Source: Theionarchaea archaeon
GTDB taxonomy: Archaea > Methanobacteriota_B > Thermococci > Methanofastidiosales > SZ-28-30
Direction: 5' to 3'
Assembly (NCBI GenBank): GCA_018992685.1
Contig: JACVGT010000025.1
Span: forward strand, 27,432-91,431
DNA length: 64,000 bases
The translations under genes and the position numbers were made by a program. Below the pieces are notes generated by a model. It searched no databases. It saw only the letters and a program-made list of their open reading frames with translations, and had not been told where the DNA came from. This document shows, piece after piece, positions 21,206 through 47,548 of this stretch. Position 1 is the first letter of the stretch. Each line of letters begins with the position of its first letter.

Positions 21206-21436
21206 ATGACCCAGAGAATTGTCGTAGGGACCGGAGAATCCTTGGACATCATGGATCATCATGATTTATGGCGATTGCTCAAGGAAGCTTTCAGGACACC
21301 TGTTGTCTGCAGTGAATGTTAGATCGTGGTACAGGTGTGTAACATTACCTCCTTGGAGACTCCCCAGGATCTGGTGAATCTCCTATCTTCTCTGGATAAG
21401 ACATGGAACCTGATTAGACATCACATCGGTCAGTAG
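21206..21436 (+). pseudogene. Broken ORF upstream of the palindrome array
   Basis: The frame reads MTQRIVVGTGESLDIMDHHD, then stops at TAG after CSEC, and continues in the same frame to TETPQDLVNLLSSL-like sequence and LDKTWNLIRHHIGQ before another TAG at 21434. The end resembles the degenerate coding sequence before the second array (LDKVLNLARHHAGQ near 43530-43570). The two loci therefore share homology beyond the palindromes. No family is recognised. Confidence 0.4.
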
Positions 21437-21620
21437 ATGGCTCAAAAATTGTAATGGCACGGTGCCACAAATTGGCCTTTTGAGATGGCACCGTGCTGCT
21501 CATTGAGTGATTTTACATCAAAATGAGCCCAGATTCAAGGAAAATGTAGTGAAGAAGATGGCACTGTGCCAATCAAACCTCCTTGGATAACTGAATTCAA
21601 AAGTTTTAACAATTCCAAGT
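21390..21620. repeat. Left copy of long repeat with phased TGGCACnGTGCCA palindromes
   Basis: Palindromes are at 21455-21467 (perfect), 21486-21498 (last three bases altered) and 21559-21571 (perfect), with start-to-start spacing of 31 and 73 bp. The surrounding sequence aligns along its length with 43525-43775, including the shared blocks aaattggcctt, ctcattgagtgattt, acatcaaaatgag, ggataactg and attcaaaagtttt. It directly precedes the integrase gene. Confidence 0.85.
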
Positions 21621-21662
21621 ATCGTGTAAGCCTTGGCAGCAATCAAATTACTGAAAGTGAGA

Positions 21663-22994
21663 ATGAAAAAAGGAAAAGTTGTTAGGGATCAAAACAAGTT
21701 AACTCAAGCCGAGGGAGCGCTTCTGAAGTTGGTGTTAAGAGCCCACCAAAACATTTATAAAGGGCAGGTGGTTCCAGGGTGTATGTTGTATGACTTTGAC
21801 CGCCGCCTTGAAAGCATGAAAAAAAAGATAAGGGGGCTTGAGGAAAAAGAGAATGCTGAGATCATCTTGAAGTTTCTCAATCAGCTCTTTGCAGAAGGGT
21901 TGTCAAAGCCCAGGGTCTTGAAGTATGCCACTCATCTCAAAGTGATATCAGAGAAAATGGGCAAGAACTTCTCAGAGATAGAAAAGGATGATCTAATTTG
22001 GTATTTATCAGAGTTGGAACAATCTGACTATTCTGCTCAAACAAAAAGAGACTACAAGGTGGTTCTCAAACGATTCTTTCCATACATTGGGAAAGGGGAG
22101 CTGGTATCGGATATAAAGACGACTTTAAGAGGAAATAAGAAGACACTGCCAGAGGAGCTACTAACAAAGAAGGATGTGGAAACATTGATTGAGGCTGCAA
22201 AACATCCTCGAGATAAGGCTCTCATCGGCATTCTGTATGAGGGAGGATTGAGGATAGGAGAACTGACAAGTCTCAAGATTAAGAATGTGCAATTTGATGA
22301 ACATGGTGCTGTCTTAAAGGTTCGGGGTAAAACGGGGGAACGACGGGTAAGAGTTGTGTTGTTTGCTTCTTCACTGGCAAAATGGATGGAAATGCATCCT
22401 GAGGGCGACAACAAGGAAGCACCCCTCTGGGTTAATCTGTCGAATAATTACAGGAAAAAGGGAATAACATATGAAGGGTTATACCAGAAGCTCAAGAGGA
22501 TTGCCAAGAAGGCAGGGATAAAGAAGAAGTTGAATTTTCACAATTTCAGGCATTCCAGGGCCACCCACCTGGCTCAGCAATTGACAGAGGCCCAGATGAA
22601 CGTGTACTTTGGGTGGGTCCAGGGAAGTGATATGCCAGCTACATATGTGCACTTGAGTGGGAGAGATGTTGATGACAGGATCCTAGAGATCCATGGAGTG
22701 AAACCCAAAGACAACGACAAGGATGACCAGTTAAAACCTCAGGTGTGCCCCCGGTGCAAGTACATCAATTCACCTGTTAGCCGATATTGTGGAAGGTGTG
22801 GGACAGTCCTTGATGAGAAGGAACGATTGAGAATGGAGATGGAGAGCAGGGGATTAACGAAGGGCTTCCCAGATATAGGTGTTGAGGATGCTGGGGTATT
22901 GGAGGGGATGAAGAAGTTCAGAGATGTGCTGGAATTGCTTGAGAAGCATCCGGATCTGTTCAAGAAAATGAGAACACTGCTGGAAGGGACGTGA
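21663..22994 (+). CDS. Tyrosine recombinase/integrase with C-terminal zinc ribbon
   Basis: A 443-aa site-specific recombinase (453 aa if the in-frame TTG at 21633 is used; the ATG at 21663 has an AGTGAG-like site). A SAM-like N-terminal core-binding domain (about residues 70-150) precedes the catalytic domain. The catalytic set is visible: Arg in EGGLRIGELTSL, His-x2-Arg in HNFRHSRATHL, and the nucleophile Tyr in ATYVHLSGRD. A C4 zinc ribbon follows (CPRCKYINSPVSRYCGRCG), an arrangement common in archaeal integrases. The gene begins right after a phased palindrome array, consistent with the left end of a mobile element. Confidence 0.92.
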   Translation: MKKGKVVRDQNKLTQAEGALLKLVLRAHQNIYKGQVVPGCMLYDFDRRLESMKKKIRGLEEKENAEIILKFLNQLFAEGLSKPRVLKYATHLKVISEKMGKNFSEIEKDDLIWYLSELEQSDYSAQTKRDYKVVLKRFFPYIGKGELVSDIKTTLRGNKKTLPEELLTKKDVETLIEAAKHPRDKALIGILYEGGLRIGELTSLKIKNVQFDEHGAVLKVRGKTGERRVRVVLFASSLAKWMEMHPEGDNKEAPLWVNLSNNYRKKGITYEGLYQKLKRIAKKAGIKKKLNFHNFRHSRATHLAQQLTEAQMNVYFGWVQGSDMPATYVHLSGRDVDDRILEIHGVKPKDNDKDDQLKPQVCPRCKYINSPVSRYCGRCGTVLDEKERLRMEMESRGLTKGFPDIGVEDAGVLEGMKKFRDVLELLEKHPDLFKKMRTLLEGT

Positions 22995-23072
22995 TATAAT
23001 TTGGGCTATTTCCCCCCATCTTTATTAGTGAGAGGAGAATCATAGAACTAGACCACATATCTTTCGTATTGT

Positions 23073-25355
23073 ATGAGCAGCCTTTATATACTTAGATTTC
23101 AATCTCCAAATATGTTATATAGTGCCATACTCTTCGCGGTGTTTTTATTCTTCGTCTCTATATGCGTTAGATTGTTCATGAAGGTTAAAAAGTGGAAGTT
23201 GATTTTAATTGATATCATTTGTTTCGCAATAATCGCTTCTACTACTGCTTACTACATTTTCCCAAAAGACACAAAGTCTGAGGATATCTACGTTTTCCTG
23301 AATGTATATTTCGATGACCGCGGGGAAAACGACTATGATGAGAATGGAAAGGTACAACAAGTTTTCCTTCTTTATCAAGAAGACCACACAAGGGTCCTGA
23401 TGTATTGCTGTTGCGTTCATCACCCCCAAGACATCGATTTTCGGCTGCTTCTTGAATATTGGAATCCCTATTCACTAAGCATGGATTTCCCGCAGAACGA
23501 AACTCTCAAATTTTTTATAATCCCTTTAGATAATTATAGTGACCGAGACCTTCTTTTTCGATCTGAAGATGATCTAGAAAAGGAATTTCCTGATTTCCAG
23601 ATGACCCGCGATCCTAATAAAGAAACGGGATATTTTAGTATGTCATCTGTTGAAGATAAGATCATGGAAAGAAATTTCTGGATTTGCTTTGATGTTGAGC
23701 CATTAGAATTTGGAACGCAGGCATATGTCCATGTCAAATTTAATAGTTGGTTGCCTGCTGACTTAATTTCACTGTGGGTCGATGAAAAACATGATATAGT
23801 TCTCAGTTTTCCTCCGGGAAAACCATCCACTGACCATGTGAACTTTGATGTCTATGGAAAATTTCAGGAATGTACGATCAAAGTCAGAGAGACTAAACGA
23901 TTCAATGAAGCTTGGTTCGTAGCAGTATTCGCAACTTTGATTACTATGACATCCTATTATCCCAGTATTAATAGAGAGAACGGCCAAACTGGAGAAATGC
24001 ATGAAAGAGGACACCTAAATCCCGAAATATCCCCTTTCTTGATTTCTCTTATCTCTGCAATATTTGTGTTCATTATTTCTTCAAGAGATAATTTTGTCGA
24101 TAATAGCGACAATACTCGATATATGCTTAGTGCTCTTGTGCAAAGCGAAGCAGCAATCATTGCTATTTTTGTGACGATAGGGCTCGTCGGGGTGCAACTG
24201 GCAGGAGTTTATTCTCCTGCATTAGCGAAAGCTTTCAGAACAAGCAATGGGCTCAAAGGACTCGTTTTTCTGTATATTTTTTCGATATCCTTAGGGCTTT
24301 ATATTCTTGGAGCGCATGATTCAACTCCGGCAATCTACATCAGACTTTGTTTTTCTCTTGGAGTTTTCTGTTTTGTAGCTTTTGCTCTTTATGCATTTGA
24401 CGCGATTGAAATGACCGAACCTACCCGATTCATCGAGAAACAGTGCCAAAAGATTAATGGATGTAATATTTTCCAGAAAGATGATCCTATTCAATCCATT
24501 TTCGATATTATAGGAGCGCTGATACGGAAATATGATGAAAGAACGGCAATATACGGATTAGACAAAATGGGAGAAGGAATTGAACTTATGTTGAAAAATG
24601 AGAAGTTCGAGAAAAAGGAGGAAATCGAAGTCTCAAATAAGATCCGCTTTGCATTCAAGGATATCGGTATATTGGCATTTCATCAAGGAAATGAGAATGT
24701 GGTACTCGAGGTTTTAGAACGTCTCGAGAGTATAGGCAATATAGCAATAGAAAATGATCTTGAAATAGTGGCTCGGAAATCTGCAGAATCTCTTGGGTCG
24801 ATTGGAGAGACCATTGTCACCAAGCAGTTCTTAGAAGAGAGAATGGATGACAGCCTAGTAGCCTACAATATCCAGGAAACTGAGAAAATTGCTTTGTCTG
24901 CTTTGGAGAAGGGATACAAAGCAGCAACTGTTGCGACGAGAAAGCTTGGAATAATTGGAGAAATTGCTATCAAGAGAGGATTTGGGAATGTAACACATGA
25001 TATAATCGAGTCATTGGAAGAAATCACGAAGAGTGCTGGAAAAAGGAAAGGGAAGACAAATAAGAGTGGGATAGTGATATCAAATATTGAGCTGGATAGA
25101 ACCATAGGAGGTGCAGTCGAATACATTAATAGTATTGCGAAGAATGCTGTTGAATTAAAATACGAGGATATAAGCGAGCACGCAATTCACTCTCTTGAGG
25201 CAGTAATTGACTGCGTTCTCATGATTGATCATAGCTACACAGCCAAACAAGTTAGAGAACAAATAGAGAAAACAAAGCACGCAGTACAAAAGGAGAAAAA
25301 CAGAAGTTTATCATTAGACTTGGAAGAGATCCTTAGAAAGCTTGATTCTGCTTGA
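23073..25355 (+). CDS. Large membrane protein with DUF2254-like core and helical cytoplasmic tail
   Basis: A 760-aa protein with two N-terminal membrane segments (about residues 13-60), an extracellular beta-rich region to ~280 with a CCC motif (VLMYCCCVHH), then several membrane segments at ~285-460. The block YMLSALVQSEAAIIAIFVTI followed by GLVGVQLAGVYSPALAKAF resembles DUF2254 membrane proteins. Residues ~470-760 are helical with repeating units around LERLESIGNIAIENDLE and RKLGIIGEIAIKRGF, spaced about 60 residues apart, suggesting a solenoid. The function is unknown. It lies just after the integrase within the mobile segment. Confidence 0.75.
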   Translation: MSSLYILRFQSPNMLYSAILFAVFLFFVSICVRLFMKVKKWKLILIDIICFAIIASTTAYYIFPKDTKSEDIYVFLNVYFDDRGENDYDENGKVQQVFLLYQEDHTRVLMYCCCVHHPQDIDFRLLLEYWNPYSLSMDFPQNETLKFFIIPLDNYSDRDLLFRSEDDLEKEFPDFQMTRDPNKETGYFSMSSVEDKIMERNFWICFDVEPLEFGTQAYVHVKFNSWLPADLISLWVDEKHDIVLSFPPGKPSTDHVNFDVYGKFQECTIKVRETKRFNEAWFVAVFATLITMTSYYPSINRENGQTGEMHERGHLNPEISPFLISLISAIFVFIISSRDNFVDNSDNTRYMLSALVQSEAAIIAIFVTIGLVGVQLAGVYSPALAKAFRTSNGLKGLVFLYIFSISLGLYILGAHDSTPAIYIRLCFSLGVFCFVAFALYAFDAIEMTEPTRFIEKQCQKINGCNIFQKDDPIQSIFDIIGALIRKYDERTAIYGLDKMGEGIELMLKNEKFEKKEEIEVSNKIRFAFKDIGILAFHQGNENVVLEVLERLESIGNIAIENDLEIVARKSAESLGSIGETIVTKQFLEERMDDSLVAYNIQETEKIALSALEKGYKAATVATRKLGIIGEIAIKRGFGNVTHDIIESLEEITKSAGKRKGKTNKSGIVISNIELDRTIGGAVEYINSIAKNAVELKYEDISEHAIHSLEAVIDCVLMIDHSYTAKQVREQIEKTKHAVQKEKNRSLSLDLEEILRKLDSA

Positions 25356-25564
25356 GAAGTACTCAAGACTGTCAGATTTCTATCAATCTATCGATAGAGA
25401 GTAGCTGAACAGAGACTACTCAACACGGGCTGATAGAGAAAAATGCCATGGAGCACTGGATCAATGTCCTTATTCTCTTAATTCTGCTACTCATGCTTTA
25501 TGATCTCACATTCGAAAGTTGTGCTGACTCATCAAGACAAGAAAAACGGAAAAATAAAAAAGGT

Positions 25565-25580
25565 GGCAGCATATGCTGCC
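25565..25580 (-). terminator. Palindromic hairpin plus T-tract after the small RHH-like gene
   Basis: GGCAGCATATGCTGCC is a perfect 16-base palindrome. On the minus strand it is followed by a run of T residues (complement of 25551-25561), as in a factor-independent terminator. The same element occurs at 27572-27587. Confidence 0.55.
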
Positions 25581-25587
25581 TGCAAAA

Positions 25588-25917
25588 TCACTGCTCAGGA
25601 TCTGCCCCTAGTTCCATTATGGCCAGAGCCATACTCCTGACCACAATGTCACCGCTCATTGCGATCTTCTGGAGCCACTCCTTGTTCTCCTCGTCTGCCT
25701 CGTCAGTATCATCACTGCATTCCCACAAAGATTCATGAGCCCGGACATCCTTGACCAGACGCCTGTACAACTGTGCTTCAGAGAGGATTTTCCTGAATTG
25801 TTTCACCAGCCAGATAAAGGTCTGATTCTTATTCCCTGTGCTGAAGTGGCTCATGATCTTGCGGAACTCCTTTTCCGTGTCTTTATCCACCACAAAACTG
25901 AGACGTTGTGTACGCAT
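25588..25917 (-). CDS. Small ribbon-helix-helix-like protein, intact copy
   Basis: A 109-aa protein. I start it at ATG 25917 (MRTQRLSFVVDKDTEKEFRK) because GGATGGGAT lies upstream and the same start is conserved in copy B; the longer frame from 25959 includes diverged non-coding sequence. The N-terminal strand-helix pattern LSFVVDKDTEKEFRKIMSHF suggests a RHH-type DNA-binding or dimerisation fold, but this is weak. The C-terminus is acidic (DDTDEADEENKE) and ends with MALAIMELGADPEQ. It is followed by a hairpin terminator. Confidence 0.65.
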   Translation of the reverse strand: MRTQRLSFVVDKDTEKEFRKIMSHFSTGNKNQTFIWLVKQFRKILSEAQLYRRLVKDVRAHESLWECSDDTDEADEENKEWLQKIAMSGDIVVRSMALAIMELGADPEQ

Positions 25918-25955
25918 GGTATCCCATCCATAATTGAATATTGCAGCCATTGGTC

Positions 25956-26066
25956 TCACATGACGGCACCGATGGAGTCAATGAGCATGTGCCAGAAGAC
26001 ACCGTTCTGGACGAAGATGGCAAACTGGACAATGAAGGGAGCATCAGGGTTTAAATTCAATTTCTC
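25956..26066 (-). pseudogene. C-terminal remnant of the membrane protein gene (copy A)
   Basis: These 111 bases correspond to the last 37 codons of the gene at 27981-28403, ending WHMLIDSIGAVM and the same TGA. The 5' part is missing and sequence upstream is unrelated. It is left over from the duplication. Confidence 0.75.
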
Positions 26067-26092
26067 AGGATTATTGCGTGATTGTCCTATTG

Positions 26093-26473
26093 TTATGATT
26101 CCCAAAATGGGCAATACTGCCTGCTGATTGGCTTTCTGTGCAGTTTTCGCTTGATTTGTATTTTATATTTTTTCTTTTCAGTCATTCTTTCTTTCATTTG
26201 TCCTAAGGATATTAGAATAATTATAACTCCACCTACTGCAAGCGAACAATAGAAAAAGTTTATATCTGACCCTGGAAGAGGTTTCCTAAAAATGCCGTAA
26301 TAAGAAACTGAAAAACCTGCATAAATTCCACATATACAAAGAAAGAAATAATACATATCCAGAACTATCTCGTTAATTGATATCAATTTTCCCTTTGTAA
26401 AGAGAATTATGAATTTGATAAACACCAATACTAAGAGAAGGATTATTAGAATCAATGTGGGATTATGAGGCAT
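26093..26473 (-). CDS. Unrecognised membrane protein, last gene of a three-gene operon
   Basis: A 126-aa protein with four hydrophobic segments (LILIILLLVLVFIKFIILF, VLDMYYFFLCICGIYAGF, NFFYCSLAVGGVIIILIS) and a basic tail (KKKYKIQIKRKLHRK). It overlaps the end of the upstream gene by 11 bases, indicating coupled translation. It lies inside the duplicated-block pair, in AT-rich DNA. No family is recognised. Confidence 0.65.
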   Translation of the reverse strand: MPHNPTLILIILLLVLVFIKFIILFTKGKLISINEIVLDMYYFFLCICGIYAGFSVSYYGIFRKPLPGSDINFFYCSLAVGGVIIILISLGQMKERMTEKKKYKIQIKRKLHRKPISRQYCPFWES

Positions 26474-26894
26474 TTGATTGTTCCCTCCTTTCGATGATGT
26501 GGAAATTGGAATTATTAACCAGATTTGAATATCTGAGTAATATCTTCAAATTTTCTAGTAGGATATTATCTACATACTCTAGTTCAAGCTGTATTCCCAT
26601 CCCAAACTCATTATACCATTTTTTATACTCTAGAAAAGCTCCTTTGATCTTTTCACACGTTCTATCTAGACTCTCTTCATCAAACCTTATCCTGGTTTGC
26701 TCATTCAAACAGTATTCGACATCCTTTATCAAATCTTCAATCAGAGGATACACTCTATTGATATGAGATCCAATCTTCTGCCTCATTTCAATTTTTCTTT
26801 GATGCCTAAATCTGATCTCTTCAACGGAGATTTCGATTATCAGATTTCGTAGAGCTGATAATAGTACTTTTAAGACTTCGATTACAGCATTCAT
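26463..26894 (-). CDS. Unrecognised helical protein, middle gene of operon
   Basis: A 143-aa, mostly helical, charged protein beginning MNAVIEVLKVLLSALRNLII, a possible amphipathic or membrane-associated helix. The middle (EIRFRHQRKIEMRQKIGSHI) is strongly basic and amphipathic. Its ATG overlaps the TGA of the upstream gene (ATGA at 26891-26894). The function is unknown. Confidence 0.65.
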   Translation of the reverse strand: MNAVIEVLKVLLSALRNLIIEISVEEIRFRHQRKIEMRQKIGSHINRVYPLIEDLIKDVEYCLNEQTRIRFDEESLDRTCEKIKGAFLEYKKWYNEFGMGIQLELEYVDNILLENLKILLRYSNLVNNSNFHIIERREQSNAS

Positions 26895-27142
26895 TTCAGA
26901 CCACCTAATGCCTTTCTCTCTATTAGGAAATTGAGAACGCGAGAATAATCTCTGGGGAGTTTCATTTTAGAATATCCTATGAGATGATAATCTATTGAAA
27001 TTTCCCGAGTTTTGAAGGTTCTTGTCTTGCTTTCTATTAGAAATCTTATGATTGACAGTATATCCCCTTCATCATTATTATCGTCCTCCCTCTTCATCAA
27101 ATATGTTCTCTTCAGAGGTTTTGCATTAAATCCCGGATCCAT
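26891..27142 (-). CDS. Small unrecognised protein, first gene of operon
   Basis: An 83-aa protein starting MDPGFNAKPLKRTYLMKRED. A TATA-like gcttaaaag near 27164-27172 lies about 25 bases upstream, suggesting a leaderless start. The part from ILSIIRFLIESKTRTFKTRE to VLNFLIERKALGGLK has the helix pattern of a small winged-helix DNA-binding protein, with ISIDYHLIGYSK in the middle; this is only a structural impression. It overlaps the next gene by 4 bases. Confidence 0.6.
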   Translation of the reverse strand: MDPGFNAKPLKRTYLMKREDDNNDEGDILSIIRFLIESKTRTFKTREISIDYHLIGYSKMKLPRDYSRVLNFLIERKALGGLK

Positions 27143-27557
27143 GAGTAGAAGTTGGTTCAGCTGCTTTTAAGCTTTTGCCGAAAGGATTATAGACTGTCAA
27201 AAATAGATATAAAAGCATATAATGGTATATAATTGCGTAGAGTGTTACATAACTAATTAGACAAATATGAGTAACATGAGTTTTTCCTAGTCCTGGTTCA
27301 CTTCCACATTAATTGACATATAGCATTTTAAATTCCTTGAATGGGAAGAAGATTTAAGAATATGGCATACAGAAACTCCATTGCTCCAGTACACGAACCT
27401 GAGAATTTAGTATTACTTCAATTGGTTATTCACCTTCCAAGTAATCCAAAAAATGGAACACCAAGCATTTTCATCATGAAATCGTGTTTATCAAGTTCGA
27501 ATATTCGAGAATTTTATTGAACATACCATGTTCTCAAAAGAAGATATTCTAAATCAA
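27143..27557. other. AT-rich non-coding interval
   Basis: Apart from the promoter of the three-gene operon near 27164-27172 I see no supported gene. Several short AT-rich stretches (agatataaaagcatataatggtatataattg region, 27202-27233) resemble stacked TATA elements. Confidence 0.35.
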
Positions 27558-28091
27558 AAAATAAAAAAGGTGGCAGCATATGCTGCCTGCAAAATCACTG
27601 CTCAGGATCTGCCCCTAGTTCCATTATGGCCAGAGCCATACTCCTGACCACAATGTCACCGCTCATTGCGATCTTCTGGAGCCACTCCTTGTTCTCCTCG
27701 TATCCTGGTCATCTGACTCTGCCTCTTCAGTGTCATCAGTGCATTCCCACAGAGCTTCATGGGCCTGGACATCCTTGACCAGACGCCTGTACAACTGTGC
27801 TTCAGAGAGGATTCTCCTGAATTGTTTTACCAGCCAGATAAAGGTCTGATTCTTGTTTCCTGTGCTGAAGTGGCTCATGATCTTGCGGAACTCCTTTTCC
27901 GTGTCTTTGTCCACCACAAAACTGAGACGTTGTGTGCGCATGGTATCCCATCCATGAGTTGTATGTTGTAATCATTGGTCTCACATGACGGCACCGATGG
28001 AGTCAATGAGCATGTGCCAGAAGACACCGTTCTGGACGAAGATTGCGAACTGGACAATGAAAGGCGCATCAGGGTTCAAGTTCAATTTCTC
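27558..28091. repeat. Duplicated block, copy B (534 bp)
   Basis: The direct counterpart of 25551-26066. Copy B continues into the full membrane protein gene, so it is the copy in its native context. However, a 17-base insertion near 27698-27715 has shifted the frame of its small gene, whereas copy A is intact. Confidence 0.88.
27595..27941 (-). pseudogene. Ribbon-helix-helix-like gene, frameshifted copy
   Basis: The first ~80 codons match the intact copy (25588-25917) almost exactly. A 17-base insertion then shifts the frame, replacing the C-terminus with an Arg/Ser-rich tail that stops at 27663. The original C-terminal coding sequence remains in another frame down to 27595. It may still give a 92-aa truncated protein. 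A terminator hairpin follows at 27572-27587. Confidence 0.7.
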
Positions 28092-28403
28092 GTAGACCAC
28101 GGGGATAATGACGAAAGCAACGACAGCAGAGAGGATCACCTCAGGGATGCTGACGGCTGGGTTTAGAGTTCCAGATCTGAACTGCATGATGGCTGAACTG
28201 AGTAGGACACCCACAAAGGCTCCAAGATACATGAGGACCTGGCGCAGCACAGTGAGGTAAGGGAGATCATCAAGTTCAGGTGCATCCAGTTCTTCAGTCT
28301 CCTGGTATGCAGCTGCCATGGTGCCATTATGCAGAGAGCCACCGTTGTTATTCTCCCATGCTTTTCTCACCCGTTCATTGAGATCAAAGTACTGCTTCAT
28401 CAT
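27981..28403 (-). CDS. Three-pass membrane protein of the envelope-like module
   Basis: A 140-aa protein with a polar ~50-residue N-terminus and three hydrophobic segments (VLRQVLMYLGAFVGVLLSSA, VSIPEVILSAVVAFVIIPVV, FIVQFAIFVQNGVFWHMLID). The start MMKQYFDLNERV overlaps the TGA of the S-layer-like gene by 4 bases, so the genes are coupled. The size and topology resemble small holin-like or anchoring proteins, but no family is recognised. Its 3' end is duplicated at 25956-26066. Confidence 0.7.
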   Translation of the reverse strand: MMKQYFDLNERVRKAWENNNGGSLHNGTMAAAYQETEELDAPELDDLPYLTVLRQVLMYLGAFVGVLLSSAIMQFRSGTLNPAVSIPEVILSAVVAFVIIPVVYEKLNLNPDAPFIVQFAIFVQNGVFWHMLIDSIGAVM

Positions 28404-29218
28404 AGAGATTCCTCCACAGTAATCTCTGACTCCTGAATTAAACCGTCCTCATTGAGATCCTTCCAGCGCAGTAACACCATTCGGCAGTCTTCATAGTCTT
28501 TCCAGGTATCAGGGTTGGCCACAAAGATGGATCCAGCTAGTGTCCCCTGCCACCCGTAGCCCCAGACCATCAGGATGTTCCGCCCTCTGTATTCTCTTAA
28601 GTAGACAATGCAGATGTCTTCTGCAGGGTATTTCTCCAGATCCAGGTAGATGGACTTTGACTCAGCATTGATCTTGAAGGACTCGTTGATGTTGTACTCA
28701 TAGGTTATTCTCAGTAGCTTTCCCAGTTCAACAGCCAATTCGTTTACTGCAGGTCCTCCCACAACAATGAGGTTCCCCGTGTCATGTTCCTCGTCAGTCA
28801 GCAGCATGTCAGTTCGACTTTCCGGGTTCTGCTGGCACCCACCCCAAGCCAATGCATACGAGATATTGGCTGCACCCAGGACATCGGGAGTTTCAGCCTT
28901 TTCTCCCACGATCAGGTAAGAATTCTTGCGGAAGAGTGTGGCCAGCGTGTGAAAGGTTTCTCTCAAGTGGTCAGTATTGTCAACATCGATAATGTCAGGT
29001 TCGTAATCAGTCTCAGGTTCATCCTCTTCAGCACTGTAGACTGCAGGTGCCGGAATAGGTGATTGCTGTAACTCAGAAAACAAGGTAGCAGGATCTACGG
29101 TCACCGTGATGTGACCAGGTACACCAGGATCTCCCACAGCTACCAACACAACAACTGAATTGACCCCGGACATGACCACTACAAGAACCAGGACTAGAGA
29201 AATCATTCTGTCATCCAT
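28400..29218 (-). CDS. Secreted protein related to archaeal S-layer C-terminal domains
   Basis: A 272-aa protein with an N-terminal signal/membrane segment (MISLVLVLVVVMSGVNSVVV). The block NLIVVGGPAVNELAVELG and the later ILMVWGYGWQGTLAGSIF are typical of the S-layer-like C-terminal domain (S_layer_C), in which a GGP(A)VN strand and a GY..(D/E)T..A motif recur. The tail KDLNEDGLIQESEITVEE looks like a dockerin/EF-hand-type calcium loop. It is too short to be the main S-layer protein, and is more likely an accessory envelope protein. It is coupled to the downstream membrane gene. Confidence 0.75.
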   Translation of the reverse strand: MDDRMISLVLVLVVVMSGVNSVVVLVAVGDPGVPGHITVTVDPATLFSELQQSPIPAPAVYSAEEDEPETDYEPDIIDVDNTDHLRETFHTLATLFRKNSYLIVGEKAETPDVLGAANISYALAWGGCQQNPESRTDMLLTDEEHDTGNLIVVGGPAVNELAVELGKLLRITYEYNINESFKINAESKSIYLDLEKYPAEDICIVYLREYRGRNILMVWGYGWQGTLAGSIFVANPDTWKDYEDCRMVLLRWKDLNEDGLIQESEITVEESL

Positions 29219-29238
29219 GTACTATCACCCCAGAAGAA

Positions 29239-29895
29239 TTAAGGGACTAGCCCCGAATCGCGCACCAGTCCGGAGGCATCTCTGACAAGGCCTGAAGCAT
29301 CTCGTACGAGACCAGAAGCCTGGCCTGCCAGTAGTATAACGTCTTCAGTCTCTGCGTAGGCTACCTGGTTCTCCAGTTGTCCCGCTCTCTTTTCGATCTC
29401 ATCTGCTCTCTTGATTTGCGATTCAATTTTCTCTGTAGAATTACCTCTCACCAGTCCTGAGGCATTGCGTACCAGACTGGATGCATCCCTCACGAGACCG
29501 GAGGCATCTTTTACCAGACTGGATACGTCCTGTACCAATGCTGAGGGATCTGCAGTCTCTGCCAACGTAATAACACGTCTCACATACCGTGAAAATTGGA
29601 CAGTCCCTTTTGATAGATTCTGGACAGTCTCAGTCAATCTCCGGTAAGAACAAGCAGTCTCATCATCTGTGACCAGTCTGGATGAATCTCTCACGAGACC
29701 TGAGGCATCCCTCACTAATCCAGAGGCATCCCGAACCAATCCAGAGGCATTCCTTACAAGCCCAGATGCGGAAGGTCTTACCTTTCCGCAGTCCAGAGCG
29801 GCAGTACTTTCACGTACTGCTTCATCGAGCTCCAGGATAGCATTATCTGTATCCTGGACAGTCCTAATTTCAATTACGACTATATCCGTTCGCAT
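29239..29895 (-). CDS. Protein built from ASGLVRD heptad repeats
   Basis: A 218-aa protein with three blocks of a 7-residue repeat, consensus ASGLVRD: residues about 43-77, 117-151 and 193-217, about thirteen units in all, separated by helical linkers (YRRLTETVQNLSKGT, EKIESQIKRADEIEKRAGQ). Synonymous codons differ between units, so the repeat is kept at protein level rather than being a recent DNA duplication. Heptad spacing with Ala, Leu and Val suggests helices packing as a coiled coil or small solenoid. GGAAGGT precedes the ATG at 29895. It is the first gene of the envelope-like module. I know of no named family. Confidence 0.75.
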   Translation of the reverse strand: MRTDIVVIEIRTVQDTDNAILELDEAVRESTAALDCGKVRPSASGLVRNASGLVRDASGLVRDASGLVRDSSRLVTDDETACSYRRLTETVQNLSKGTVQFSRYVRRVITLAETADPSALVQDVSSLVKDASGLVRDASSLVRNASGLVRGNSTEKIESQIKRADEIEKRAGQLENQVAYAETEDVILLAGQASGLVRDASGLVRDASGLVRDSGLVP

Positions 29896-33142: not shown

Positions 33143-33182
33143 TCTATTCTCACCTCTTTATGTAATGAAGATGTCTCTATTA

Positions 33183-33224: not shown

Positions 33225-33450
33225 GGATATCCCTCCGAGAATCATGCCCTCTTTTGGTCTTTTTTCTTTATAACCTTATCTACTACTAACTCCTATCACG
33301 ATATCACCTCCTTTCTTTGCTCCTATGACCAGTACAACCACCACTGTTTCCTGGTGAAGAGCTCCCGTGAATGCCACGCACTGAATGTGGTGAGCTGCCT
33401 CCCTGCCACCTGTCGCGTTGTTGAAATGGAGAATCACTTATTGATATTCG

Positions 33451-33933: not shown

Positions 33934-34033
33934 GAAACCGTCTGGTTTCCCTATGGTTCAAATCTTTCCATTGGTTTATACTTCAAATGAGGCATTTGAA
34001 TGGTAAATTGTACAACACAGCAGATTTGTCGAG

Positions 34034-34985: not shown

Positions 34986-37900
34986 ATGTATTCCATGGGG
35001 GATGCTTTGCATAAGAACTGGGAGACATACGTGCGAAAAGAACAAATGAAGGAGATGACGAAGATGAGAGACAAAATCTTAATATTGGGGTTAAGTGCTG
35101 CTCTTCTTATGAGTTTATTTTGTTATGTTCAGGAGATAGCAGCAGGGTATGATGGTTTGAGTGAGAGAATTCCTGTTGTGGGAGATGATGTTGCAGGCTC
35201 TCTCAGTAATGTGCCACCTGTGGTGGAAGTTGTACCTGATGTATCCAGTGGGAAGGCACCCTTGCGCGTGCAATTTGAGGGAGATGTGTATGATGAGGAC
35301 GGGGAGATTACTAGTCTGGAATGGGACTTTGAAGGAGACGGGGCCTTTGAGGTTACGAGTGATCTGAAGAGTATTGAGAGACCTCAGAAGTTGCAGGCGG
35401 CACGGGAAGGATTACAGAAGGAGCATGTATATGATAATCCAGGAATCTACCATGCGGTCGTCAGGGTGACGGATGATAAAGAGGAGAGTACTACAGCATC
35501 TGTGACCATACAGGTGTATTCGGATAGACCATGGCTGGATATTACGCCATCCAACAAGGATGGATTTTTGTATCAGGCACAGGCTGGATATGAGGCCTTC
35601 TTTGGGGAAAATGTGGGTAAAGAGATAAAATTTGAGTTGAATAACGCATATATTACGTACCGAATGGTGAATCAGTCTTTTGGTGCTGTCAATACCGCAA
35701 AGGGTGAACCTGAAGGGAACAGAATCTGGTACAGGAATGTCTTCCCCGGAGTTGATATACGATATACGGTGCATGAGGATTTGTTACTGGAAGAATTTGT
35801 GGTATACCAGCCCGTGGGTATAACGGTGATTGAGCAGGAATTTGTAACGCATGGAGTGGACTATAAGATGGAGGAAGATGGGTCCATTGGGTTCTACAAT
35901 GGGGAAGATCTGGTATTTTCTATCCCGAAACCGGTGATGTATGAGTTTAATAACCCGGAAAGGAAGTGTTACGGGTTACATTATGAAGTTGTGGAGAAAG
36001 GTAATTTGTACATACTGAGGAAGGTTATTGATAATTTAGAATGGTTAAAGTCTGCCAAATATCCCGTGGTCATTGATTCGTCCACGCAGGGCGAGATAGC
36101 TGATCCCTGGGAACAGCAGGGGTTAACACCGTACGGGCAGTACTTCCAGAACATGAATGAATATGTTGATCCCTTGACTGGGCATCTTAATATAAGACAG
36201 ACAGATTATTCTCTATCTGGGAGAGGGCTGGATTTATCCATATCCAGGGTCTACTCCACGGTGGTGGCTTACAAGGAAGATGAAGAGGAGAGTGGCTCTG
36301 GGGAGTATGTACCCATTGCTACCTATAAAGAAGCACCCACGGATCTGGGATATGGATGGTCTCTGGATTTTCCCTGGCTGGAATTTAACGAGGATGACCA
36401 GGAACCTGGCCACTACTTACATTTACCCAAAGGGGTCCAGATCAAGACCAATTTTGTTGATGGAGTATGGATTGATGAGACACACCACTTTGTTATGTAC
36501 ATTAATGGAGATTATTCCTATACCAAATACAGAGATGATGGTGTGAGAGAAGACTATGATAGTCAGGGGCGATTGACATCTATCACTGATTTGAATGGGA
36601 ATGTCATTACCTTCTCCTACGGGCAGTATGGTATCTCCCAGATTGCGGATACCGTGGGAAGGACTGTCACCTTCAACTACAGTTCTGACACGTTAATGAG
36701 TATTACAGATGGGGTGAGGACTATCTCCTACAGTTATTCTGGAGGTAAATTAACAGCAGTAACGGACCCCATTGGGAGGGTAACAACCTACGAGTATATG
36801 TCAGAAAATAGCTTCCTGATAACGGGGGTGCATTACCCTTCAGGTGGATTTTCTTCCTATGAGTATGGTACCGTCATACCGGAAGCGGGAAAGATTGCAC
36901 CTTATAAATCTTCTGAGACTGAAGATGGGGAAACCCAGTACTACTTCTACAAGGTGGACAGCCCGGATACGGTCACCTGGACCTCACCCAAGGATTTAGC
37001 GGGTGTTACGGGAGCTGCAGGGAGGCCGTATGTTGTCCAGAGAGATGATGGCTCCTTTGTTATGTACTTCAAAGAGAAGTACGTGTGGACAGAAACGGTC
37101 TGGAAATGTGGAGGAGGTGACTGCTGGGAAGAGATAATTACCCATACAGAATACTGGATCAAGAGATCGACCAGTACTGATCAACAGCACTGGTCAACTC
37201 CTCAGAACGTATTACAGGTCAAGAGCACCACAGGAAATCCCATAGTCATTGAGAAACAGGATGGTACTCTTATCATGTACTACATGGATCATTACCAATG
37301 GACAGAAGAGAACTGCTACTGGGATAACAGGTTACATGAGTGGGTCTGTGAGACTATTACGCATAATGAGTTCTATATTTACAGGAGATCGAGTTCAGAT
37401 GGGATAACCTGGGGGAGTCCCGTCAAGGTACAACAGACAACAGTAGGTGTGAGGAATATTGCTGCCATCCAGAAGCAGGATGGTACCTTTCTACTGGTGT
37501 ATATGGATAAGGTAGGTTCAGCATACTACATGAGACAGAAAACGTCTGCAGATGGGTTATCCTGGGGAACTGCTTCCAATGTTGTTCAGGTGGATAGTGG
37601 GACGGGAGGCCCTGCTCTACTGCAAGCTGATTCAGGTACCGTTTATCTCGCATATAGAAAAGGTAATTCTTCTTTGTATGTCACCTCCAACTCTGGAAGT
37701 GAATGGTCCACCCCTGTTCAAACTACGGGGGTAGCATCAGGTGATCCTGCCTTCCTACAGACAGAAACGGAGATTGTCTTGATCTACAAGGGGACGGATA
37801 ACTACTGTTACCGCATTTCCAGTAGCGATGGTGCTAACTGGTCTTCTCCTTCCCAGATCGCTCCCAATAAGATCGTCTCAGATCCTGCATCTGTACAGAG

Positions 37901-40900
37901 GACAGACAGATCTTATAGAGTAACTGCCCAGTATATTTCAGCTTCAGCATTGGATTTGGTGAAAATCACTGAATTCTCTTACACTGGATCAGGGTATCTG
38001 TCTGAATCTACTGATGTCTTAATCCGTGACTCTCAAACACTGAAATCCTCTATGCATTTTGAATATGATTCCAAAGGGAGGACTACGGAAAGAATATCAA
38101 AGGATGAAAATGGTACCCAAACGGAGAAGACAGTCTTTACCTATAATAATGGTGATAAAGTCATCAGGCAGGATGTCTATGCGGGTACCTCCACAGGGAT
38201 TTCCTACAGTGTTCTCATTGGCTACGATAATGGAGGTAACGTCGTTTATACCAGAAATCCAGAAGGTGCAGAACACTTCTACTCGTATGCCAATACGAAC
38301 TCTCAAAACCAGTTCATTGACTCCAAGGGTAATCCCGTTCAGTTATTCAGTAACCAGTTCTACACCAATTCCGTTCCCTCTCACTGCCACACCTTGTTGG
38401 CAGGAGAAGCCTTCATCAATAATGGGAAGGTCACTGAGTGCTATTATAAGTATGATAATAATGGCAACATGATTGAAACCAAAACCTTGTACCCAACTCG
38501 TGATTACGAAGTCTTCTCAGGCACTTTTGATGAGAATGGACAGACTACCTTTGACATTGATTTGACAGGACTGACCATAACTGATGCCGTCCTGGTCATT
38601 TCCAGCATAGCTGTCCCCACCCAGGAAACTCTCTACGAGACTCACTCTGAAGTGGGGAAAGGCTGGTTAGACACTGGTACGTGGTCAGGGAAGTACTTCA
38701 TGGCTGATTACTTCAGATGCTACAGCACAAGTCCTCCAGACTGCTTTGATGGTTCCACTAAGATCGGGCCTTTTGAACATTATCCTGGAACACCCAATTA
38801 CACAGGATATACGACCTGGGTAGAGGAGAATACTCAATACGTCAAAACAAGCTACACAGCAATCGTCAATGAGTACCCTGAAATGGTGGAATACAGTCTT
38901 AATGATTCATCTTGGAATGAAATTACTGATAACTTGGGCTCTGGTACGACTTCAACTTTGATTCCGGAATCTTCCTTTGTTCAAGGAGCCAATACACTGC
39001 AACTCAGAGAATCCAACGCGTTTTCCACCAGGTTTGACTGGGTCCTGTACATTGACCAGGGTGCCACACCACAGGAATACATGACAAGCCTCGCTTACGA
39101 TAGTAATGGAAATGTTATCTCCGCCACTGATGCAAAGGGGAATACAACCTTGTTCAGCTACGATTCGCATTATATGTATTTGACCTCCCTCACTGATACC
39201 CTCAGCAGGACAATTTCAGCTGCATACAATTTCACGACAGGGTGGATGATTAGCGTAACAGATGCACAGGGCAATGTAACATCATACGAGTATGATGAAC
39301 TGGGGAGGGTAACCAAGAAGATCCTTCCAGATCTCGCAGAATTGGAAGTTTCATATGATGATCAGAATAGCACTGTCACCATCTATGATGAGTTGGATCA
39401 TTTCCAGACAAAGTACTACGATGGGCTGGGCAGGCTCATTAGAGATGAACGGTATCTCTCTCCCTCAAGTGCTTTGACAGAAATTTACACCTACAACTAC
39501 ATGGGTAAAATGGAATCAAGAACTGACTCAGGAGGTCAAACGTACTCTTACCAGTACGATTCTCTGGGGAGACCCACTAGAATCACCAATCCGGATTCCT
39601 CATTCGTTCACTTTGACTATAATTATACTACCAACACGGTGAATAGCTATGATGAGAATCAGCACAGAAAGCAGTATCACTATGATTGGACTGGATTGTT
39701 GCTGTGGGTGAAAGAGTATACAGGCCCAGAATCCTACTACTTCACTGAGTACAAGTATGATTCTCTGGGGCACCTGACCTCTCTCACTGATGCCAGGGGA
39801 AATACGACCTCTTATGAGTATGGTTCATTATTCGGAGCGACTCAGGTCACGTATCCTGACTCCACGAATGAGACATACCTGTACGATGCAGTGGGTAATG
39901 TGGTACAGAAGACGGATGCCAATGGTACCACTGGTTTTGTTTATGATAATGGATATCAGTTGTCTTCTGTCACCTATACAGATGGATCTGTGGTCACATT
40001 TGAGTATGATGTAAATGGCAGCCGCACCCTCCTTACAGATAGTGAGGGCAGTACATGGTACACCTATGACAACAGGAACAGGCTGCTATCAGAAACACGG
40101 AGTATTGATGGACAGGAATACACCGTGAGCTACAGTTATGATCTGGCTTCCCGACTGGTTTCCACCACCTATCCAGATCAGACTGTAATCACCTATGAAT
40201 ATGATGCTGCCAATCGATTGGTTACTATTCCTGGATATGCCCACTATACCTATAATGCTGATTCTCTTGTGGAATCTGTTGGTTATGCCAATGATGTTAT
40301 AGCATCGTTCCAGTATGACAGTCGCAACAGACCCATTTCCATCCAGGCACAGAGTGCTGGAAGTGATGTCCTTTCCATGAGCTATCAGTATGATCCAGTG
40401 GGGAATATTACAGAGATGGACTACGGAAGGAGACTTCCAGATCAACAGTGGAACGAGTCCCAGGAAACCTTCGAATATGATTGGCTCGATAGAGTGGTGT
40501 CTGCCCAGGGGGACTATGGATTGCTTTCATATTCGTATGATCCTGTGGGAAATCGGGTATCACAGAACGGTGTAGCTTACACGTACAATGAGATGAATGA
40601 ACTCATTTCCACCAGTGACGGCATTCTCTTCACTTATGATGGTAATGGAAACACCCTATCGAAAGCTGACAGAACCAATACCTGGATATACAGCTATGAC
40701 AGCAGGAACCAATTGAAGGAAGTGCAGAAGGACCAGCATATGACAGCCCAGTACTGGTATGATGGTGATAATCGTCGAGTCAAGAAAACAGAATGGAAGG
40801 ACGATTTGCAGGAATACCAGACTACCATCTATATCTACTCTGGTACAAATGTGATCTATGAGAAAAATGTGACTACAGATGGTGAAGCTGACTATATCTG

Positions 40901-41858
40901 CAGTTCAAAGGGACTCATTGCCAAAAAAGTGGGTGACTACGTGGACTACTACCACACGGATCACGTGGGGTCAACACGGTTAGTAACAAATGAAGAAGGA
41001 CAACCAGTAGCTGAATCTGAATACGATCCCTTTGGTGCTACAGACACTGAAGAAGGATACCTCTTCAATGGAAAGGAAAAAGACTCCACAGGCCTGTATT
41101 ACTATGGGGCCCGTTACTACAGCCCGGAAACTGGGCGGTTCATAACCAGGGACCCTCTTCCAGGAAAGATCGAGTCTCCCCAGACTTCAAACCAGTATGT
41201 CTACTGCTTGAATAATCCTTTGAAGTATGTAGATCCCAGAGGTATGGACTGTGAATATGTCATCCTCCCTGATGGCACAATTTCCTACGATTTGGCCGAA
41301 CTCTACAACAAGATGCAGAAAGCACTAGAAACAATGAGCGAAGAGGACTGGGCGCAACTCGACGAATACCTTGCTCCTGGTACTGATGCAGCAACCAAAA
41401 TGGAAGCTGTTAAGGTCATTCTGGAAAAAGCTGGCATAAACTTTAAAGATGAGACAACATCATTAGAGGTAGAGGTTGGTACTGTGAATTTTACGATCGA
41501 ATTCAGTGATCTGCCTTTTCCCGAATGGGGAGAAACCAGAAGGAAAAAGGGATTTTCTACTGGAGAAATTCTGCTTTCCAATCACATCCACAGCGGCGGT
41601 GACCTATTTCTCGTTTTAGGTCATGAGATGACTCATGCATATATGTTGAGCTATCACGAAAATAGCATCAATTCGGTGCAATGCCAATTCGGAGACGAAG
41701 GTAGGAAGGCATACATGGAGCTCATCAGCTATCAATGGGAAGTTGGAATCTTGAACCAAGTACCTCATGTTTCACTTATGCAGAGAGAAACCATCTTGGA
41801 GCAATTTGACAGATATAAACTCCTGTGGCCTCTCATTCAGACCTATGGTGCATCATAG
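34986..41858 (+). CDS. Giant RHS/YD-repeat protein with PKD domain and C-terminal HExxH domain
   Basis: A 2290-aa surface or secreted protein. Order of parts: membrane/signal segment (about 27-54; ATG 35064 is an alternative start), PKD domain (about 76-178), a beta-rich domain to ~370, and an RHS N-terminal block (VDPLTGHLNIRQTDYSLSGR). YD repeats follow, then a BNR/sialidase-like propeller insert with repeated WSTP/WGSP units (about 640-990), more YD repeats, and the RHS core near 2021-2056 (GLYYYGARYYSPETGRFITR). The last ~230 residues differ and carry His2213-Glu-Met-Thr-His2217, a zincin metallopeptidase motif. This is polymorphic-toxin architecture, with a probable metalloprotease tip. 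The PQQ gene starts 21 bases downstream. Confidence 0.9.
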   Translation: MYSMGDALHKNWETYVRKEQMKEMTKMRDKILILGLSAALLMSLFCYVQEIAAGYDGLSERIPVVGDDVAGSLSNVPPVVEVVPDVSSGKAPLRVQFEGDVYDEDGEITSLEWDFEGDGAFEVTSDLKSIERPQKLQAAREGLQKEHVYDNPGIYHAVVRVTDDKEESTTASVTIQVYSDRPWLDITPSNKDGFLYQAQAGYEAFFGENVGKEIKFELNNAYITYRMVNQSFGAVNTAKGEPEGNRIWYRNVFPGVDIRYTVHEDLLLEEFVVYQPVGITVIEQEFVTHGVDYKMEEDGSIGFYNGEDLVFSIPKPVMYEFNNPERKCYGLHYEVVEKGNLYILRKVIDNLEWLKSAKYPVVIDSSTQGEIADPWEQQGLTPYGQYFQNMNEYVDPLTGHLNIRQTDYSLSGRGLDLSISRVYSTVVAYKEDEEESGSGEYVPIATYKEAPTDLGYGWSLDFPWLEFNEDDQEPGHYLHLPKGVQIKTNFVDGVWIDETHHFVMYINGDYSYTKYRDDGVREDYDSQGRLTSITDLNGNVITFSYGQYGISQIADTVGRTVTFNYSSDTLMSITDGVRTISYSYSGGKLTAVTDPIGRVTTYEYMSENSFLITGVHYPSGGFSSYEYGTVIPEAGKIAPYKSSETEDGETQYYFYKVDSPDTVTWTSPKDLAGVTGAAGRPYVVQRDDGSFVMYFKEKYVWTETVWKCGGGDCWEEIITHTEYWIKRSTSTDQQHWSTPQNVLQVKSTTGNPIVIEKQDGTLIMYYMDHYQWTEENCYWDNRLHEWVCETITHNEFYIYRRSSSDGITWGSPVKVQQTTVGVRNIAAIQKQDGTFLLVYMDKVGSAYYMRQKTSADGLSWGTASNVVQVDSGTGGPALLQADSGTVYLAYRKGNSSLYVTSNSGSEWSTPVQTTGVASGDPAFLQTETEIVLIYKGTDNYCYRISSSDGANWSSPSQIAPNKIVSDPASVQRTDRSYRVTAQYISASALDLVKITEFSYTGSGYLSESTDVLIRDSQTLKSSMHFEYDSKGRTTERISKDENGTQTEKTVFTYNNGDKVIRQDVYAGTSTGISYSVLIGYDNGGNVVYTRNPEGAEHFYSYANTNSQNQFIDSKGNPVQLFSNQFYTNSVPSHCHTLLAGEAFINNGKVTECYYKYDNNGNMIETKTLYPTRDYEVFSGTFDENGQTTFDIDLTGLTITDAVLVISSIAVPTQETLYETHSEVGKGWLDTGTWSGKYFMADYFRCYSTSPPDCFDGSTKIGPFEHYPGTPNYTGYTTWVEENTQYVKTSYTAIVNEYPEMVEYSLNDSSWNEITDNLGSGTTSTLIPESSFVQGANTLQLRESNAFSTRFDWVLYIDQGATPQEYMTSLAYDSNGNVISATDAKGNTTLFSYDSHYMYLTSLTDTLSRTISAAYNFTTGWMISVTDAQGNVTSYEYDELGRVTKKILPDLAELEVSYDDQNSTVTIYDELDHFQTKYYDGLGRLIRDERYLSPSSALTEIYTYNYMGKMESRTDSGGQTYSYQYDSLGRPTRITNPDSSFVHFDYNYTTNTVNSYDENQHRKQYHYDWTGLLLWVKEYTGPESYYFTEYKYDSLGHLTSLTDARGNTTSYEYGSLFGATQVTYPDSTNETYLYDAVGNVVQKTDANGTTGFVYDNGYQLSSVTYTDGSVVTFEYDVNGSRTLLTDSEGSTWYTYDNRNRLLSETRSIDGQEYTVSYSYDLASRLVSTTYPDQTVITYEYDAANRLVTIPGYAHYTYNADSLVESVGYANDVIASFQYDSRNRPISIQAQSAGSDVLSMSYQYDPVGNITEMDYGRRLPDQQWNESQETFEYDWLDRVVSAQGDYGLLSYSYDPVGNRVSQNGVAYTYNEMNELISTSDGILFTYDGNGNTLSKADRTNTWIYSYDSRNQLKEVQKDQHMTAQYWYDGDNRRVKKTEWKDDLQEYQTTIYIYSGTNVIYEKNVTTDGEADYICSSKGLIAKKVGDYVDYYHTDHVGSTRLVTNEEGQPVAESEYDPFGATDTEEGYLFNGKEKDSTGLYYYGARYYSPETGRFITRDPLPGKIESPQTSNQYVYCLNNPLKYVDPRGMDCEYVILPDGTISYDLAELYNKMQKALETMSEEDWAQLDEYLAPGTDAATKMEAVKVILEKAGINFKDETTSLEVEVGTVNFTIEFSDLPFPEWGETRRKKGFSTGEILLSNHIHSGGDLFLVLGHEMTHAYMLSYHENSINSVQCQFGDEGRKAYMELISYQWEVGILNQVPHVSLMQRETILEQFDRYKLLWPLIQTYGAS

Positions 41859-41879
41859 GATCTTCAAGGAAGTGACAAA

Positions 41880-43280
41880 ATGAAATTGGCATTGATAATA
41901 ATCGTCCTTTTGAGTGTATGCTCAACTGAGACATGCGAAAACTGGCCCATGTACCAGCATGATCCCCAGCATTCGGGGTACAGCTTGTGTCCAGCTCCCG
42001 ATACTGGGTATTGGCTCTGGACCTATGATGCTGGAGCTCCCATTATTGCCTCACCTATTGTTGTTGGAAACATGATATACTTCCCGGCTTTGGGAAAGAT
42101 GGTTGCATTGAAAGCAGATTCTGGTGAAGTGCTTTGGACGCAGAAAGTTCCAGTGGCAGGTTCAACACCTGCAGCATCTGGAGAAACGCTTGTCGTAGGA
42201 ACGACATGGGGTTTCATGGCTTTGGATACTAAAACTGGTGAGACTAGATGGGAACAGGAGATCGCGAGGCTGTACGCCAGTGATGAGTTTTTTGAATCAT
42301 CACCTTTGATACTGAAAGACAAAGTATACGTAGCGACAGGGACAAATGCTATGATCCTGTATCCAGGACGAGGTGTTGGCGAGCTGCCTCTGAGAAACGT
42401 TATGTGCATGGATATCAAGACAGGGCAAATAGTCTGGAAAAAGGATGTGCATGCAGAAGTCAGTTCCTCGCCCGCCTTCTCTCATGATACCCTCTACGTC
42501 AGCAGTGAATCTTGCGTTGCACTTGATTTAGATGGTAACATAAAGTGGGAATATAACCATGGGTATTCCCTGAGCAGCTCTCCTGTTATCATTGATGACA
42601 GTTTAGTGCTGGCTGCCCAGAATGCCTTTTCGGGACGCAGGATCATCAGAATTCAGCGAGGTAACGTATTGTGGTCAAGAGAGCCAAAAGATATGATAAC
42701 GACCCCTCCTGCTGCATATGGAAAGAAGATTGTTTTCATTACTATTAAGGGGGATGTATTAGCCCTGGATCTTGAGACTGGTGATCCTATCTGGACCACT
42801 CACTTAGGGGGGGAACTTCTCATAGACGATACGTCTCTTGCATGTTCCTCTTCACCCGTTATTGCTGATGGGAAAGTCTACGTCGGTACTCTAAGTGGAG
42901 TATTCACCTGCTTGGATCTGGAAAATGGAACAATACTATGGCAATACCAGACAGAAGGAGCTATCGTATCACCTGCTGCCATAGCGAACGAAAGAATCTA
43001 TGTAGGTTCTACAGATGGTACATTGTACTGCTTTGGTATCGACCCTGAAACCTATTTTCAAAAGGCACAACGCTACGAAGAGAAAGGAGACACAGAAAGG
43101 GCCCGAGAATTCTACAGGAAAGCCAGAGACTACTACCAGGAACAAGGTGATATAACCATGATAAAAAGATGTGACGAAATCCTGAGGGAAAGAGACTACC
43201 TCTGGGGTGCAGCTCTGGCAGCAGTCGTTATAGTGATCTTGTTGCTTCTGTTCTACTATAGAAAACGGCGAACAAGTTAG
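41880..43280 (+). CDS. PQQ-like beta-propeller protein with C-terminal membrane anchor
   Basis: A 466-aa protein with a signal peptide (LALIIIVLLSVCSTETCENW) and about seven PQQ/YVTN blades, for example MVALKADSGEVLWTQKVP, LDTKTGETRWEQEI, MDIKTGQIVWKKDV and LDLENGTILWQYQTEG. A TPR-like helical pair follows (KAQRYEEKGDTERAREFYRK). It ends in one membrane segment (GAALAAVVIVILLLLFYY) and a basic tail, so the propeller is displayed outside. It lies 21 bases after the RHS gene, likely in the same operon, and could assist display of the RHS protein or be an immunity/adhesion partner; this is inference. Confidence 0.87.
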   Translation: MKLALIIIVLLSVCSTETCENWPMYQHDPQHSGYSLCPAPDTGYWLWTYDAGAPIIASPIVVGNMIYFPALGKMVALKADSGEVLWTQKVPVAGSTPAASGETLVVGTTWGFMALDTKTGETRWEQEIARLYASDEFFESSPLILKDKVYVATGTNAMILYPGRGVGELPLRNVMCMDIKTGQIVWKKDVHAEVSSSPAFSHDTLYVSSESCVALDLDGNIKWEYNHGYSLSSSPVIIDDSLVLAAQNAFSGRRIIRIQRGNVLWSREPKDMITTPPAAYGKKIVFITIKGDVLALDLETGDPIWTTHLGGELLIDDTSLACSSSPVIADGKVYVGTLSGVFTCLDLENGTILWQYQTEGAIVSPAAIANERIYVGSTDGTLYCFGIDPETYFQKAQRYEEKGDTERAREFYRKARDYYQEQGDITMIKRCDEILRERDYLWGAALAAVVIVILLLLFYYRKRRTS

Positions 43281-43379
43281 AACACTTTTATTATCAGCTT
43301 GCTATCCTTTGAACCAATGTTGGCTGGATTGAATTGGGTATTGTCAGTCTTGATGAGAAATGCAGTTGAAGATTAGGAA

Positions 43380-43524
43380 GTCGGAGAGATATCGAATAAG
43401 GAAGTAGTTGAGATTATCAGATCACAAGTCTTTGACTCACTTGCCAGTGAAATCGAGAAGCTTCTCAAGGAAAAATGTAACCCCTCTATTGTAGAATACG
43501 AGAAACCTGTTCAGGAAAGGAGTT
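43380..43524 (+). pseudogene. Start-less coding remnant before the right palindrome array
   Basis: After a TAG at about 43375 the frame reads EVGEISNKEVVEIIRSQVFD, then SLASEIEKLLKEKCNPSIVE, with no start codon. Coding character then shifts to a second frame (LDKVLNLARHHAGQ) that resembles the sequence before the left array. I read it as a decayed gene. Confidence 0.4.
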
Positions 43525-43775
43525 TTAGACAAAGTATTGAATCTAGCCAGACATCATGCTGGCCAGCAGGTGGCTCGAAAATTCGCAGTGGCACCGTGCC
43601 AGAAATTGGCCTTACAAGATGGCACCGTGCCACTCATTGAGTGATTTCACATCAAAATGAGTCCAAATTCCAGAAAAATGCAGGGATCGGAATGGCACAG
43701 TGCCAAAATCTACACAATACCAATGGCACTGTGCCAATCAGAATTTTGTGGATAACTGGATTCAAAAGTTTTCGC
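43525..43775. repeat. Right copy of long repeat with four phased TGGCACnGTGCCA palindromes
   Basis: Perfect palindromes lie at 43589-43601, 43620-43632, 43693-43705 and 43724-43736, with spacing of 31, 73 and 31 bp. It aligns with 21390-21620; the left copy appears to have lost one 31-bp unit by recombination between its last two palindromes. It lies between convergent genes, so it is not simply a promoter region. The rest of 43776-43868 shows no gene. Confidence 0.87.
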
Positions 43776-47547: not shown

Positions 47548-47548
47548 A

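Follow-up and report, generated by a model that had tools for sequence, protein, structure and literature searches.

Candidate protein-binding palindrome arrays at and near the ends of tRNA-associated islands in a Theionarchaea genome

The window, a 64,000-nucleotide stretch of a Theionarchaea archaeon genome, contains what is best read as an integrated element of 25.07 kb (~21707–46779), lying at the 3′ end of a tRNA-Cys gene (Table 1). A direct repeat of the tRNA 3′ end is present at both element boundaries, at 21707 and 46780. The repeat is short (11 bp); on the left side within the window, AGCCGAGGGAG is the sole exact match of at least 11 bases to the tRNA-Cys end, and its match to the right-end tRNA was equalled in 4 of 4000 shuffles. 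A second integrase, on contig C8 of the same genome, has GCCCCTGCCG at the equivalent position, a 10-bp match to the 3′ end of tRNA-Ser(GGA) (1 of 4000 shuffles). Together, the window and C8 att cases make an element at a tRNA 3′ end the best reading. The first-pass annotation had inferred an archaeal integrated element that carries cargo besides its tyrosine recombinase, and such an element is indeed present, with RHS and PQQ proteins in the cargo; it had also taken two palindrome arrays as the ends of a 22-kb element. The arrays are ruled out as boundaries because the att repeats lie elsewhere (21707–21717 and 46780–46790). Of the two, the left array falls outside the 25-kb element and flanks attL, and the right array is internal, with 3.0 kb between it and the element's right end.

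Table 1. Features of the tRNA-Cys element and its left flank (window coordinates).
Feature	Position	Strand	Remarks
Left palindrome array	21430..21572	.	sites 21455-21467, 21486-21498 (degenerate), 21559-21571
Tail 1	21573..21706	.	non-coding, left array to attL core
attL core AGCCGAGGGAG	21707..21717	.	direct repeat of tRNA-Cys 3′ end (46780-46790)
Tyrosine recombinase (XerA-like)	21783..22994	+	C-terminal zinc ribbon; start inferred from homologues
760-aa cargo protein	23073..25355	+	no family match
Module common to the C8 element, near its integrase	25544..29906	.	85-94% identity
Two cargo genes	30394..33142	-	545 aa with AAA_assoc_C; 372 aa without match
RHS-repeat protein, cargo	34986..41858	+	2290 aa
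PQQ beta-propeller protein, cargo	41880..43280	+	
Degenerate ORF tail	43386..43565	+	recurs 5′ of the tail at tRNA-Thr(TGT), contig C6, without array
Right palindrome array module	43566..43777	.	sites 43589-43601, 43620-43632, 43693-43705, 43724-43736
HTH genes	43869..46346	-	155-aa HTH (45879-46346) and 664-aa winged-HTH-like (43869-45863)
Tail 2	46643..46778	.	terminal segment before tRNA-Cys, 136 bp
tRNA-Cys (gca)	46779..46850	-	target gene; 3′ end forms attR

The integrase matches Pfam Phage_integrase at 7.8e-24. In a three-sequence alignment its similarity to two homologues begins at the methionine at 21783, making the 21633 start of the mechanical ORF unlikely; a TATA-like TTTATAAA precedes the start at 21754–21761. 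Residues R157, K183, H253/R256, W278 and Y288, which we take to be the catalytic ones, are invariant in that alignment, and by them the enzyme is predicted to be catalytically intact. The recombinase does not begin directly after the left array, as had been thought: its start is 212 bp past the last palindrome, with the tail and the attachment core between. An SSV-type (suicide) integrase element was considered and rejected, as 65 bp separate the core from the conserved start downstream of it and the integrase gene is intact. The arrangement is closer to that of the pNOB8-type unsplit-integrase elements, which likewise have a tyrosine recombinase beside an att core copying a tRNA 3′ end, an intact tRNA at the opposite end and variable cargo, and for which tandem insertion is known (PMC8371274). 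Unlike them, the window element has extra phased palindrome arrays in its terminal region. A further difference is one of orientation: the attachment core adjoining the window integrase points the opposite way to the tRNA found beside several homologous integrases, where the tRNA is on the integrase side (L042, L048 and, for the G008 integrase, the tRNA end preceding it). The homologous integrases of L042, L048 and L054 (reverse complement, first 130 bases) were seen directly downstream of a tRNA 3′ end, and a promoter string, CCCACCAAAACATTTATAAAG, is common to L054 and the window.

Relatives of the window integrase were not found among viral contigs. The integrase of Geoglobus acetivorans pleomorphic virus 1 (Pleolipoviridae) is ~41% identical over 94% and is likewise the first gene of its element. 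In contrast to that virus, VP3/VP4, Rep and other viral structural genes were not recognized in the scanned proteins of the window element, and on this ground a pleolipovirus-like provirus was rejected. No palindrome array is present in the short sequence that precedes the viral integrase.

Further detail was noted in the cargo and the HTH genes. The module common to the C8 element contains an internal direct duplication (25550–26066 and 27557–28091) of ~530 bp and 92% identity, whose unit is single-copy in the C8 element (L027 1921–2519). An in-frame TAG splits the HTH gene pair, and its position is kept in the C1a copy; this indicates either two coupled genes or a read-through codon. The pair is 74% identical at the amino-acid level to L139 8910–11214. 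The 155-aa HTH protein weakly resembles the ParB-like family phrog_1033 (E 0.0044).

The window is syntenic with a congener, G001, at 5141–15950 and 48861–63557. Between these blocks, no G001 DNA matching 15950–24900 or 44000–48861 was found besides tRNA-Val and minor repeats. The contigs of G001 break near the edges of the variable region, so the empty-site check called for by the first-pass annotation gave no clean empty site. A 158-bp repeat of 98% identity (15419–15576 and 18840–18997) was noted at the left edge of the variable region; it has a 74% match in the congener (L093 4535–4692).

Six exact copies of a 13-bp palindrome, TGGCACNGTGCCA, and one degenerate copy make up the two clusters in the window. 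The first-pass annotation had located all seven correctly; the exact copies are six rather than seven, the left-array site at 21486 (TGGCACCGTGCTG) having two mismatches to the palindrome. Its spacings were borne out (31 and 73 bp in the left array; 31, 73 and 31 bp in the right), as was their nearness to 3 and 7 helical turns, being 2.95 and 6.95 turns if 10.5 bp per turn is taken. The 3.03-Mb genome has 10 exact matches: two in the left array, four in the right, three in an array on contig C1 (at 301953, 302026 and 302057) and one on contig C9. Chance expectation is ~0.2 exact copies under uniform base composition, so the lone C9 site needs no explanation, but the arrays do. Nine of the 10 fall in three homologous arrays and the C9 copy is the only isolated one, ruling out lone palindromes as a genome-wide signal.

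Aligned with one another, the three arrays imply an ancestor with four sites, spaced 31, 73 and 31 bp apart. The left array has lost a 31-bp unit, as first surmised, between sites 3 and 4, and the C1 array is without the unit between sites 1 and 2. The two window arrays align over ~158 bp at 80%, so the ~230 bp of aligned flanks claimed earlier shrink to ~160 bp between them; a stretch of ~285 bp is reached only for the left array against the C1 array. Because the three arrays are related by descent, their equal spacing is no independent evidence of phasing. Still, with 13–20% divergence within the arrays, no spacer indels are found besides losses of the exact 31-bp unit, a pattern compatible with constraint on spacing. 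Of the 48 module columns that make up the palindrome arms, 46 are invariant; for the remaining 156 columns the figure is 120 (Fisher P = 0.0025). The central base varies among copies where the arms do not. Since the arms are better kept than the spacers, the palindromes are probably protein-binding sites; kept arms, a free centre and paired phased sites point to a dimeric DNA-binding protein. Single-strand hairpins at the palindromes (z −5.1) are a direct consequence of the palindromes and hence no independent evidence.

Arrays of this kind appear restricted in the searches made. None was found in 201 relatives, and the archaea represented among GTDB species yielded none either. When 84,980 species were scanned for two such palindromes 5–35 bp apart, five stretches were returned, all from unrelated bacteria. 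A search of the literature for the exact string TGGCACTGTGCCA gave a sole match, which is unrelated. In IMG/VR, the scan for paired TGGCACNGTGCCA yielded seven contigs (L102–L108). Three of these were looked at closely, and in them the sites sit next to, or in between, genes for Arc-family ribbon-helix-helix proteins; flanking sequence in the remaining contigs has a similar look; we regard these viral sites as candidate operators of the Arc-type repressor family. The likeness to the archaeal arrays is that the same 13-bp palindrome is clustered in non-coding DNA. Unlike the archaeal arrays, the phage sites are between or beside Arc genes and at other spacings. No Arc-like reading frame was found in the examined archaeal loci, so the archaeal sites are not classed as Arc/Mnt operators, and the motif common to the two may be convergent. 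By analogy, the viral Arc neighbourhood suggests a dimeric, repressor-like type of binder for the archaeal palindromes.

The array recurs with a particular tail. Tail 1 and the left array are together 76% identical to a segment abutting tRNA-Thr(GGT) on C1. The same tail joins array to core at both places: the C1 array ends 133 bp from the tRNA-Thr(GGT) 3′ end, and the left array ends 136 bp from the tRNA-Cys-derived core, across tail 1. At tRNA-Thr(GGT), G001 is syntenic only on the side of the tRNA, over a single piece, and its contig there starts within that tRNA. About 45 bp of tail 1 also adjoin the tRNA-Ser-derived core on C8. The terminal segment before tRNA-Cys is of another type, tail 2; similarity between tails 1 and 2 is not significant, and their homology was rejected. 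Tail 2 is found at the 3′ ends of seven tRNA genes (Cys twice, Ser, Glu, Thr-CGT, Thr-TGT and Asp) and once more in the same genome without a tRNA; the palindrome array is absent from this type. It is absent from G001, and its only other match is 21 bp of G011, in the tRNA part.

The tRNA-Ser(GGA) gene whose 3′ end the C8 core matches is on C1, and it has the HTH gene and tail of the window tRNA-Cys (44242–46802 against L139 9118–11669, 84%). We infer that C8 and C1 are linked, from the att match and the shared modules; no end overlap between the two contigs was found. At tRNA-Thr(TGT) on C6, the degenerate ORF tail joins tail 2 directly, with array and HTH genes missing, which makes the array dispensable. 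It is likewise missing from the tRNA-Ser end and from the C8 integrase, and so is not required for integration. The C8 integrase is 68% identical to that of the window, and the C1 array has no integrase; the co-occurrence of array and integrase that had been anticipated is therefore not general. Among 23 more distant integrase homologues with sufficient upstream DNA, none was found to have an array upstream. These array-free homologues and relatives rule out the arrays as a general trait of the integrase family.

We give about even odds to the following reading: the palindromes are operator-like candidate sites for a dimeric DNA-binding protein and belong to a movable stretch of non-coding DNA, which sits at the tRNA-facing end, or close to it, of related tRNA-targeting integrative islands in this archaeon. 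The binder might be a regulator from the element itself or a ribbon-helix-helix or HTH protein of the host. In the simplest history, which is stacking, the left array would mark the tail of an element that had integrated earlier at this tRNA, and the 25-kb element would later have inserted between tail 1 and tRNA-Cys, displacing the older tail. Tandem integration is known in archaea (PMC8371274). The bound protein might form a phased multimer controlling recombination at the adjacent att, nearby transcription, or both. Points against this reading are the shortness of the att repeat, the other orientation of the tRNA on the integrase side in several relatives, and the lack of an Arc-like gene in the examined loci.

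In two of three cases the array is at most 140 bp from an att core, which suggests a role in recombination or integrase control; its absence from related integrases and other tails argues against an essential role. The position of the right array, 3 kb from the end of the 25-kb element, also counts against the main reading. We consider it improbable that the arrays represent a novel class of accessory recombination site, at which a dimeric archaeal protein on the phased palindromes, 130–280 bp from the att core, would build a higher-order complex and so set the direction of integration at tRNA genes. Lambda-type attP has arm and accessory sites, and the window islands resemble it in having phased protein sites within ~300 bp of the crossover core; unlike the lambda type, other elements with related integrases have no arrays. 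Again unlike the lambda type, the archaeal integrases characterized so far need no directionality factor (PMC8371274), which we count against the main reading. An accessory site as just described would, if real, provide a directional control so far not described for these enzymes; one concrete candidate is the phased, constrained protein-binding array found beside att cores at two tRNA islands.

The arrays might instead be operators of a self-regulating repressor, for example the HTH proteins at 43869–46346, that would govern the integrase or genes nearby, with no role in recombination. The right array is 133 bp from the HTH gene 3′ end, the left array 212–328 bp upstream of the integrase start, and in phages this palindrome forms arrays that flank Arc-type repressor genes. 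However, the right array is downstream of the HTH gene rather than upstream, the C1 array faces no clear gene start within ~350 bp, and the C1a copy of the HTH genes has no array, so we consider self-regulation possible but rather unlikely. An iteron-type plasmid replication origin or partition site of the excised element, raised by the first-pass annotation, would explain phased repeated sites in non-coding DNA at one array per 25-kb element. Yet no Rep, ParA or ParB was recognized among the scanned proteins of that element, which leaves an origin without its initiator and a ParB-type site with only the weak phrog_1033 resemblance and no ParA. With the array also missing from related tails and C8, and with four palindromes in two pairs being fewer and otherwise arranged than typical iterons, we think this function very unlikely. 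We likewise put little weight on the module being a passive repeat or miniature element copied among islands, its palindromes now functionless. Such copying would account for three copies in different upstream contexts with a common left boundary, for lost units and a decayed site, and for restriction of the module to one genome, but not for arms that are significantly better conserved than the spacers.

A bacterial DnaA box sequence, TTATCCACA, was noted near the right array (43748–43756, reverse strand). It is not conserved in the left and C1 arrays and is probably a chance occurrence; to our knowledge, DnaA does not exist in archaea.

Tails of 80–450 bp are present at seven tRNA 3′ ends (L139–L143, L028 and window 46643–46778), mostly without a nearby integrase. 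They are possibly non-autonomous or decayed integrative elements. With island tails of one type or the other at eight different tRNA genes, this genome is a good case for the stacking of integrative elements at tRNAs and their spread among them.
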